Positions 30,479 through 64,000 of a stretch of 64,000 nt of DNA are shown piece after piece (positions within the stretch are counted from its first letter, which is position 1; each line of letters opens with the position of its first letter). The notes beneath the pieces were generated by a model. It was not told the origin of the DNA. It worked only from the letters and a program-made list of their open reading frames with translations, and did no database searches. Location of the stretch: assembly GCF_002633015.1 (NCBI RefSeq), contig NZ_NSIU01000005.1, positions 32,360-96,359 on the forward strand, given 5' to 3'. This DNA comes from Sulfuricurvum sp. PD_MW2. Lineage in GTDB: Bacteria; Campylobacterota; Campylobacteria; Campylobacterales; Sulfurimonadaceae. The position numbers were made by a program, and so were the translations under genes.

Positions 30479-30553
<75 letters not shown>

Positions 30554-30580
30554 CTTATGATACTTTTTTACTTTTTACGT

Positions 30581-30655
<75 letters not shown>

Positions 30656-30682
30656 CTTATGATACTTTTTTACTTTTTACGT

Positions 30683-30757
<75 letters not shown>

Positions 30758-30784
30758 CTTATGATACTTTTTTACTTTTTACGT

Positions 30785-30859
<75 letters not shown>

Positions 30860-61240: not shown

Positions 61241-62929
61241 TTATAACTCTGTTTTAAGAGCGGCGCCGTTAGAGGCATTAGAAACAAGAAGGCTGTAGCG
61301 TTTTAACCATTTGGAAGGGATCTCTTTTTTGATCGGTTTCCAATGCAAACGGCGTTGTTCCAATACTTCATAGCTTACATTGAGTTGCAAGAGGTGAGTA
61401 TCGACATCGAGTTCAATCTCATCGCCGTCTTCGATCAGGGCAATCAAACCGCCCTCCGCCGCTTCTGGACTGACGTGACCGATAGAGGCTCCGCGTGTCG
61501 CACCCGAAAATCGTCCGTCCGTGATGAGAGCAACGCTCTCACCCAGCCCCATTCCCATAATGAGGGCTGTCGGAGCAAGCATCTCCTGCATCCCTGGTCC
61601 ACCCTTCGGCCCCTCATAGCGGATAACAACGACATCGCCCGCTTTTACTTTGTGTCCGACGATTCCGGCAATCGCTTCTTGCTGGCTGTTAAAACAAACC
61701 GCAGAGCCTTTGAACTTGCGCATATTCGGAGTGATCCCTGCCGTTTTGACAACCGCTCCCTCTTCCGCAAGGTTACCGAACAAAATAGAAAGTCCGCCCA
61801 CAGGAGAATACGCATTTTCATTAGTATGGATAATGTTCGGATCTTTGATCACCGCATCTTTGATCCGCTCACCAAGTGTTTCACCCGTAACCGTCATCGC
61901 ATCGGTGTGAAGGATGCCGCCGCGTCGGCTAACCTCTTTCATAACCGCATTAACCCCGCCCGCTCGGTTGATATCATCCATATGTACGGTTGAGAGTGAC
62001 GGAGAGATTTTTGCGATATGAGCAACATTCTCAGAGATTTTATTGATTTGAGTAATGTCAAAATCAACCTCTGATTCTTTTGCGATACTAAGCATATGAA
62101 GAACTGTATTCGAACTTCCACCCATTGCCATATCGACAACAAATGCATTGTGAATCGCTTTTTCATTGAGAATATTGCGCATATTCCATTTAGCGCTATT
62201 TTCATCTTTGACCATTTCTACAATACGGCGAGCTGCTATTTTGACCATTTCGATACGCTCCGGAGTCATTGCCAAAACCGTACCATTACCCGGCAACGCT
62301 ACTCCCATCGCTTCACAAAGAGTATTCATCGAGTTTGCCGTAAACATACCTGAACATGATCCGCCGCTTGGACACGCTTCACATTCGATCTCATAGAGCT
62401 CTTCATCAGACATTTTACCATCAGCGTGTTTTCCGACCGCTTCAAACGCTGTTGCCAAATCGATCGGCGTACCGTCTTTCTTGTGTCCCGCCTTCATCGG
62501 TCCGCCCGAAACAAAGATAGTCGGAACATTGACGCGAAGTGCTCCCATCAGCATCCCCGGAACGATCTTATCACAGTTAGGGATACAGATAAGCCCATCA
62601 AGCTTATGCGCATTCATCACCGTTTCGATACTATCTGCGATCAGTTCACGGCTTGGCAAACTGTACAGCATCCCATCATGTCCCATTGCAATACCATCGT
62701 CAACACCGATCGTATTAAACTCAAACGGAACTCCTCCCGCTTCACGAATCGCCTCTTTGACAATTCGTCCATACTCTTGAAGAAAAAAGTGTCCCGGAAT
62801 AATATCGATATGAGAGTTCGCCACTCCGATAAACGGTTTATTGAAATCTTCATCTTTGAGTCCGGTAGCTCGGAGCAAGCTACGATGAGGCGTTTTATCA
62901 AATCCCCGTTTAATAGTATCACTGCGCAT
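61241..62929 (-). CDS. ilvD: Dihydroxy-acid dehydratase
   Basis: 562 residues. Fe-S ligands lie in [12 protein letters not shown] near 120 and [20 protein letters not shown] near 190. The C-terminal half has KGGPGMQEM and [10 protein letters not shown]. It forms the 2-keto acids for valine, isoleucine and pantothenate. AAAGGATTTCC precedes the ATG. It faces the glycan locus with only 3 bases between stops and no recognisable terminator. Confidence 0.98.
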
Positions 62930-63073: not shown

Positions 63074-63148
63074 GCGGGAATAGCTCAGTGGTAGAGCACA
63101 ACCTTGCCAAGGTTGGGGTCGCGAGTTCGAACCTCGTTTCCCGCTCCA
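63074..63148 (+). tRNA. tRNA-Gly (GCC)
   Basis: 75 bases with encoded CCA. The acceptor is GCGGGAA/TTCCCGC, and the anticodon GCC lies in loop TTGCCAA. Confidence 0.97.
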
Positions 63149-63209
63149 TGTCATCTTAGCTGAAGCATTGATTTTGATGTTTGAGCTGAGATATTTTTTT
63201 CTACGTGAA

Positions 63210-63296
63210 GCCCGGATGGCGAAATCGGTAGACGCAAGGGACTTAAAATCCCTCGGTGGTAACACTGTGCCGGTTCAAGTCCGGCTCCGGGCACCA
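63210..63296 (+). tRNA. tRNA-Leu (TAA)
   Basis: 87 bases with encoded CCA and a long variable arm. The acceptor is GCCCGGA/TCCGGGC and the anticodon TAA lies in CTTAAAA. Confidence 0.97.
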
Positions 63297-63304
63297 TTTA
63301 TGGT

Positions 63305-63378
63305 GGCGGCATAGCCAAGCGGTAAGGCATGAGCCTGCAAAGCTTTGATCCCCGGTTCGAATCCGGGTGCCGCCTCCA
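63305..63378 (+). tRNA. tRNA-Cys (GCA)
   Basis: 74 bases with encoded CCA. The acceptor is GGCGGCA/TGCCGCC and the anticodon GCA lies in CTGCAAA. It follows tRNA-Leu by 8 bases. Confidence 0.97.
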
Positions 63379-63409
63379 AGTTAGAAAAAGATAGCTTCAA
63401 TTTTACTAC

Positions 63410-63497
63410 GGGTCACTGGCAGAGTGGTCGATTGCACCGGTCTTGAAAACCGGCGAGGGTAACACCTCCCAAGGTTCAAATCCTTGGTGGCCCGCCA
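63410..63497 (+). tRNA. tRNA-Ser (TGA)
   Basis: 88 bases with encoded CCA and a long variable arm. The acceptor is GGGTCAC/GTGGCCC and the anticodon TGA lies in CTTGAAA. It is the last member of the cluster; foreign-looking sequence with a ubiquitin-like gene begins after it. Confidence 0.96.
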
Positions 63498-63598
63498 TCA
63501 CATTCCACAAATCATTACGCCCATTCAACAATCAAGTACAACAACATTATTTTTATCGTGTAACTTCGAGTCATCAATCCATTGAGCACGCCGCTTTA

Positions 63599-64000
63599 TT
63601 AATAAGGACATATGTTCTTATCTGGAACTATTGAATCCGAGGGTATTGGCATTGTTTCTAAAACATTTTGTATATTATTTTCAATAGTCGTAGTAATCCC
63701 TATACGTTGGTCAACTATTTCGTCGCTATCACTTCGTCTTTCTTGTAAAGTAAGATTTAAAACAGCCTCTTTTCGGATGTTATAATCAGCCAAAGTATGC
63801 CCTTCTTTTAACTCACTTCCATTAAATATAAGAGTTTGCTGTTCTGGAGAAAGTCCTTCTTTATCTTGTATTTTAGCTTTTATATTTTCAATTGTATCGC
63901 TCGCTTCAACTTCTAAAGCAATCGTCTTTCCTGTCAGTGTTTTAAAAAAGATTTGCATTGCCACAGCATTCGAAACTAAAAGTAATGTACTGATATATAC
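63599..64000 (-). CDS. Exported ubiquitin homologue with C-terminal tail (start beyond window edge)
   Basis: The frame ends at TAA 63601-63599 and is open through base 64000. From the Met at 63958 it reads [20 protein letters not shown] and continues without gaps against eukaryotic ubiquitin. By hand I count about 52 of 76 identical positions. Lys 6, 11, 27, 29, 33 and 63, Leu8 and Ile44 are kept. Lys48 is Ser, His68 is Asn and Val70 is Thr. The LRLRGG end is LQERRS, followed by 43 extra residues with one Cys (NICPY end). Upstream in the same frame is a hydrophobic run, [11 protein letters not shown], ending in an A-V-A signal-peptidase site directly before Met1. An internal GTG at 63964 is therefore not the likely start. 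BfUbb of Bacteroides fragilis is a known exported precedent. Function unknown. Confidence 0.9.

Follow-up and report, generated by a model that had tools for sequence, protein, structure and literature searches.

Ubiquitin is a protein tag usually held to be typical of animals, plants, and fungi, and bacteria too have proteins of the ubiquitin-type fold, in the ubiquitin-like conjugation systems that serve antiviral defence. The closest described protein to the one analysed here is BfUbb of Bacteroides fragilis. As set out in PMC5705921, BfUbb is secreted, lacks the Gly-Gly end, and, as a synthetic mature protein, inhibits 13 of 40 B. fragilis strains, whereas bacteria on which BfUbb acts are not affected by bovine ubiquitin; divergence from eukaryotic ubiquitin thus goes with antibacterial action there. 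According to PMC3352274, BfUbb can also prevent ubiquitination in vitro and forms a covalent link with human E1. Both sources treat bacterial ubiquitin as a rarity ("one of a few bacteria" in PMC5705921).

The window (the whole stretch of 64,000 nucleotides of Sulfuricurvum sp. PD_MW2 DNA that was analysed) stops where its contig stops (C22 of genome G000; 96,359 bases), and an earlier note had read a minus-strand frame at this edge as a near-eukaryotic ubiquitin. The frame lies where it had been placed, and a Pfam scan matched it to PF00240 far beyond chance (score of 82.6 bits, with the cut-off at 25.4; E 1.7e-23). Its gap-free match to ubiquitin from Met1 to residue 74 was borne out by alignment; the hand count of 52 identical residues also held, but over a denominator of 72 (against Volvox, i.e., algal, ubiquitin) and not 76. 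The frame has no introns. The note had further seen most chain-forming lysines and the Leu8/Ile44 part of the binding patch as retained, which is correct for six lysines (K6, K11, K27, K29, K33, and K63), L8, and I44. However, K48 is replaced by Ser, and of the residues that we take as the ubiquitin hydrophobic patch (L8, R42, I44, K48, H68, V70, and R72), five of seven are altered (R42, K48, H68, V70, and R72; hypergeometric P 0.015). Patch changes amounted to 78/561 in 73 other sequences (14% versus 10% expected). A C-terminal tail replaces the LRGG end, and GG is absent past position 72 in the window protein and in two close relatives, P0047 and P0090 (see below); lacking Gly-Gly, the window ubiquitin cannot be conjugated. 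The fold prediction that the note had proposed gave an AlphaFold2 model with pLDDT of about 90 over the ubiquitin part and below 50 over the tail, which matches solved ubiquitins (beta-grasp fold; TM-score normalised by target of 0.95 for the first match). Judged from its sequence, the frame thus is a true ubiquitin domain, eukaryotic in type and of the exported kind. The gene start is absent from the window because the contig stops at 64000.

Table. Features at the end of the window (window coordinates)
Feature	Position	Strand	Basis
Ubiquitin gene (ubb-like)	63599..64000	-	Open frame; PF00240, 82.6 bits; stop codon 63599-63601
Predicted signal peptide, last 14 residues	63959..64000	-	P0047 and P0090; P0047 passes the simple rule
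Ubiquitin domain, positions 1-72 (Met1 at 63958)	63743..63958	-	PF00240 match; gap-free alignment; predicted fold
47-residue tail past position 72, ending CPY	63602..63742	-	Predicted disordered; matched only by P0047 and P0090
Insertion-sequence relic: last 20 transposase codons and terminal repeat (63519-63545)	63518..63588	-	93% identity over 71 bp
tRNA-Gly, tRNA-Leu, tRNA-Cys, tRNA-Ser cluster	63074..63497	+	Cluster region matched across the genus
ilvD, dihydroxy-acid dehydratase	61241..62929	-	IlvD 98% identical to that of S. kujiense

A first protein search with the window frame returned 4957 matches, the best 120 of which were mostly polyubiquitins, with two close relatives among them that are full-length at 139 residues: P0047 (96% identical to the window protein; 8 member sequences on 5 contigs) and P0090 (90% identical; one contig). 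In P0047, a 20-residue signal-like peptide precedes the ubiquitin domain, which begins at Met1 and is followed by a tail of 47 residues with CPY at its end. In both relatives the peptide directly abuts Met1, and in P0047 it passes the one simple, fixed rule by which signal peptides were called; for the window protein, the first 6 residues of the peptide lie beyond the window and are visible only in P0047 and P0090. The likeness to BfUbb drawn in the earlier note is supported, the plan of the two being similar (signal peptide, ubiquitin domain, no Gly-Gly). A search with the tail on its own matched P0047 and P0090 and no others. Between the window protein and P0090, 65/72 domain residues (7 differ) and 42/47 tail residues (5 differ) are the same, i.e., the tail is no less conserved than the domain, which makes its decay unlikely.

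Position at the extreme contig end and unlike base composition (GC of 0.326 versus 0.432 for the window, with 22 of 1272 segments of the gene's length as low; GC3 of 0.20 versus 0.45 in ilvD) might be taken as signs of misassembly or eukaryotic contamination, an explanation that we hold to be very improbable. The IlvD matches listed (120) that bore an organism name were all from Sulfuricurvum, with the exception of one "Campylobacterales bacterium". The relic behind the tRNA cluster is 93% identical to the end of an element repeated in other Sulfuricurvum genomes, and its transposase tail remains in frame; the intact transposase frame of the element encodes 361 residues with HTH_38 and rve domains, a combination typical of the IS30 family. 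This Sulfuricurvum insertion-sequence DNA fills the gap up to 10 bp from the ubiquitin stop codon, which marks the flank as native and renders a misjoin at the tRNA, raised in the earlier note, unlikely on sequence grounds. The signal-like peptide, the intronless frame, the occurrence of 90-96% identical relatives in other data sets, and an estimated genome contamination of 0.06 likewise argue against an artefact. With a Sulfuricurvum IlvD and a native insertion-sequence flank, the assignment of a eukaryotic-type ubiquitin to a Campylobacterota chromosome stands.

Close homologues, which the note had allowed might prove common in the genus, were found in 0/36 other Sulfuricurvum genomes (1/37 with the window's own). 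A first scan of genome contigs, with a three-row alignment, gave no match. The tRNA region preceding the gene was matched in 41/41 genus genomes, partly via short tRNA matches alone, and the DNA downstream of tRNA-Ser is variable: among the 30 loci fetched, 27 had at least 1000 bases past tRNA-Ser, and the commonest gene family occurred in 6 of these 27. The end motif of the insertion sequence was present in 9/41 Sulfuricurvum genomes. In 17 of 30 motif loci fetched, a tRNA gene 3′ end lay at most 100 bp before the motif, so that the element appears to favour sites behind tRNA genes. Other copies of the element end in the window's genome are at C67:1003-1029 (behind tRNA-Phe) and C68:229-255; the repeated insertion sequence was also found at loci L137 and L156, and the relic ends were joined to many dissimilar sequences. 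Low GC, the relic, and presence in a single genome of the genus agree with a gene carried as mobile cargo, as antagonism genes commonly are. The ubiquitin gene probably reached its site in this way, at a hotspot for insertion sequences behind a tRNA gene. Element integration at the tRNA-Ser 3′ end was considered and dropped in favour of this hotspot: the insertion-sequence end lies ∼20 bp past the tRNA, and a second copy of the tRNA-Ser end was not found in the window's genome with a 24-bp pattern allowing 1 mismatch. In G016, taken as S. kujiense, the tRNA-Ser 3′ end recurs as a 62-bp copy 11 kb downstream with an integrase gene before it, and the ∼11-kb island from tRNA-Ser to this copy (L040 1195-12368) carries integrase, C-5 methylase, HNH, and LRAT genes. 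Elsewhere in the window (30479-30859), four tandem tRNA-Asn genes are arranged at a regular 102-base spacing.

Ubiquitin matches were also scarce beyond the genus, with 3/397 genomes in the phylum sample and 3/398 in the order sample, the same three genomes in both and the window's own among them. The two other Campylobacterota carry ubiquitin before an outer-membrane barrel, clearly so in G378 and with weak support in G299. The G378 protein (475 residues) comprises a signal-like peptide, ubiquitin, a helical linker, and a PF03797 autotransporter barrel (138 bits), and its model (mean pLDDT of 65.6) matches EstA, NalP, and ubiquitin; this gene was found in 1/31 genomes of its genus. In the G299 protein (406 residues), PF03797 has no match, and the barrel is supported by a low-scoring match to the EstP model, far under the cut-off. 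P0047 aligns with the G378 protein over residues 1-93 without gaps at 60% identity. Both the architecture of these proteins and this alignment favour the idea that the window protein is the remnant of a surface-displayed autotransporter ubiquitin, which has lost its barrel and is now functionless or confined to a minor periplasmic role. Pfam scanning for PF03797 yielded no match in the window protein or P0047. A profile of autotransporter linkers scored on the tail better than on most shuffles (13 of 908 scored shuffles, from 1000 made, reached the observed score), whereas pairwise Smith-Waterman comparison of the tail with 64 such linkers was no better than chance, 368/500 shuffles reaching the observed score. 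Moreover, P0047 and P0090 have kept both the stop codon and the tail, which speaks against simple decay. We regard a barrel-less remnant as unlikely.

To place the gene in a wider frame, species genomes were scanned with a ubiquitin-domain alignment, which gave 559 candidate stretches, 285 of them encoding relatives. Ubiquitins with export-like signals occur across many bacterial groups, and the "second, separate acquisition" after BfUbb that the earlier note had envisaged is not supported. The best 80 of the 285 relatives, a choice that favours conserved ones, were kept for analysis. By the fixed rule, a signal-like peptide ends exactly at Met1 in 65/80, compared with a mean of 5.1 and a maximum of 13 of 80 when the upstream residues were shuffled. 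Among the 15 that do not pass, L044, L049, L061, and L084 have GG but lack a signal-like start, and could be intracellular forms or stem from eukaryotic contamination; a signal-like start is likewise missing from L065, L089, L093, L111, and L118 (actinobacterial titles); L083 is cut short upstream; and, on visual inspection, L097, L101, L103, L114, and L121 do have a signal-like appearance. Of the 80 records, 17 have titles other than those of metagenome bins, and 15 of these pass the rule, including the complete chromosome of Pseudomonas protegens FD6. As to bin names, some are doubtful: L095 ("cyanobacterium") and L110 (Methylophilaceae) share a near-identical linker and the same neighbour gene.

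The conjugation end is largely lost from this class. GG occupies positions 75-76 in 8/80 relatives, and in the 65 rule-passing sequences positions 1-72 are kept at 90% and positions 73-76 at 26%. What follows the domain differs: among 71 scanned proteins (67 of the 80 together with the window protein, P0047, G378, and G299; L049, L061, L084, and the ten longest were left out), 25 have an autotransporter barrel (PF03797), 4 OMP_b-brl, 4 SLH, 3 IPTL-CTERM, 2 T9SS tails, and 2 dockerins. No recurrent neighbour was general around the 80 loci; a conserved gene of ∼330 residues stands beside a barrel-type ubiquitin gene in 5/80 (L051, L076, L095, L108, and L110). Pedobacter cryoconitis (L066 5186-6588) has four tandem ubiquitin genes with signal-like starts. 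As to carriage by mobile DNA, 50,697 phage records gave 0 matches, and 3 of 72,556 plasmid records matched, that of Ruminococcus albus 7 alone being close. On Pseudoalteromonas plasmids (L039 1477-3249), a giant Ig-like/tandem-95 repeat protein has an N terminus 35-37% identical to the query. Viral contigs gave 1 match in a first scan and 8 in a second, 5 of the latter with a signal-like peptide and 3 without (L129, L130, and L133); L130 and L004 are one viral contig.

A tree of the 72-residue domains, an analysis that the earlier note had also called for, was built on 96 rows, but only 6/91 inner branches were starred, and the window row sits on a long branch in no starred group. With the short-domain tree so poorly resolved, neither the donor nor the number of transfers can be stated. 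Synonymous and nonsynonymous divergence was compared in 74 sequences (70 of the 80 plus the window, G378, G299, and R. albus 7, the 10 of the 80 that were dropped having either no signal-like start or GG together with a doubtful origin). The median pS of 0.89 against a median pN of 0.11 (2701 pairs) indicates amino acid constraint over a long separation. This constraint may have been exerted within bacteria, or else within eukaryotic donors from which the gene was then transferred repeatedly. The presence of ubiquitin genes with predicted export signals in many other bacteria suggests that ubiquitin serves outside the bacterial cell in a role that has drawn little notice and is probably antagonistic. 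A literature search of titles and abstract openings, outside subscription papers and preprints, found no description of ubiquitin autotransporters or surface-anchored bacterial ubiquitin. On balance, we lean toward regarding exported ubiquitin as a class of weapons, widespread and unrecognised, that bacteria secrete or display on their surface, in which, in many phyla, eukaryotic-type ubiquitin was fused exactly at its Met1 with a signal peptide and also with the lineage's own outer anchor, while its tagging end was dropped; the Sulfuricurvum gene would then be a fast-evolving, free-floating form borne by a mobile element.

For the window protein itself, our preferred but tentative reading, to which we give somewhat less than an even chance, is that of a ubiquitin without Gly-Gly, predicted to be exported via a signal peptide cut exactly before Met1, and most likely serving as a BfUbb-like weapon outside the cell against competing microbes. 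The protein is predicted to leave the cytoplasm by Sec export, with cleavage directly before Met1 yielding a ubiquitin fold with a flexible tail; it would then be released outside the cell and could harm nearby bacteria through a target bound by its ubiquitin surface, which has drifted from that recognised by eukaryotic partners. That an exported antagonist is meant is taken by analogy from the plan shared with BfUbb. In favour of antagonism we count the signal-like peptide at Met1 (P0047 and P0090), the lack of Gly-Gly, the conserved tail, the altered patch, low GC, the relic, presence in 1/37 genomes of the genus, and the same start plan in 65/80 relatives. The alteration of five of seven patch positions suggests that the target of this member is other than eukaryotic ubiquitin receptors; the relatives, with 14% of patch changes, could differ from the window protein in their reliance on such receptors. 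On the other side, the window protein has no barrel of its own for crossing the outer membrane, its tail is shared with few relatives (P0047 and P0090), and most relatives keep the eukaryotic surface (I44 in 61/74 and K63 in 73/74 sequences), which for the class would suit eukaryotic partners.

Such partners are central to a different reading, a possible one that we nevertheless think rather unlikely for the window protein, namely, an exported decoy or ligand directed at eukaryotes, e.g., grazing protists, in which unconjugable ubiquitin, once taken up, would occupy ubiquitin-binding proteins or inhibit E1/E2. The block of in vitro ubiquitination and the covalent E1 binding by BfUbb, as given in PMC3352274, are in line with a decoy, as are the loss of the conjugation end from exported relatives that mostly keep the eukaryotic surface and the pS and pN values above. 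Against a decoy stand the altered patch of the window member and, in PMC5705921, the inactivity of bovine ubiquitin on bacteria on which BfUbb acts. An intracellular modifier in a bacterial ubiquitin-like conjugation system appears least probable of all, next to negligible in our estimate. The predicted fold would suit such a modifier, and two ThiF-family (E1-like) genes lie on other contigs of the genome; ThiF-family proteins also occur in 12/14 control genomes, however, so that these two genes say little. The protein has a signal-like peptide and no di-glycine, PADLOC returned no match, and an E2 search of the genome found none, as was also the case in the control genomes; the DNA upstream of the gene lies beyond the contig end.

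If export-type ubiquitins are common, with an exact start and a discarded conjugation end, ubiquitin would have become an extracellular bacterial protein in many lineages. Two questions could then be tested: what it is in target cells that BfUbb-like proteins attack, and whether bacteria present ubiquitin to the protists that graze on them.

In comparison with known systems, the window protein differs from the antiviral ubiquitin-like conjugation systems in being of the exported type, without Gly-Gly, and without a PADLOC match. The plant-parasitic nematode Globodera rostochiensis secretes a ubiquitin that, as described in PMC5705921, likewise combines a signal sequence, ubiquitin, and a C-terminal extension, but it belongs to a eukaryote, and its extension has 12 residues and is cleaved off. 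Ubiquitin autotransporters such as that of G378 share the N-terminal signal-like peptide and ubiquitin and differ by their outer-membrane barrel. The R. albus 7 ubiquitin family protein (WP_013483628.1, plasmid pRUMAL01) is alike in its signal-like peptide before Met1, its lack of Gly-Gly, and its mobile replicon; it has another, longer C-terminal part (246 residues in total) and a Gram-positive host. BfUbb, as described in PMC3352274 and PMC5705921, comes from a different phylum and ends after 76 residues with Cys, whereas the 47-residue tail of the window protein has its Cys at the third position from the end; for BfUbb, secretion and antibacterial action have been demonstrated, and for the window protein they are proposed. 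The two nevertheless have in common a ubiquitin domain, a signal peptide abutting Met1, and the absence of terminal Gly-Gly, and the genes for both lie in low-GC DNA and are patchily present.
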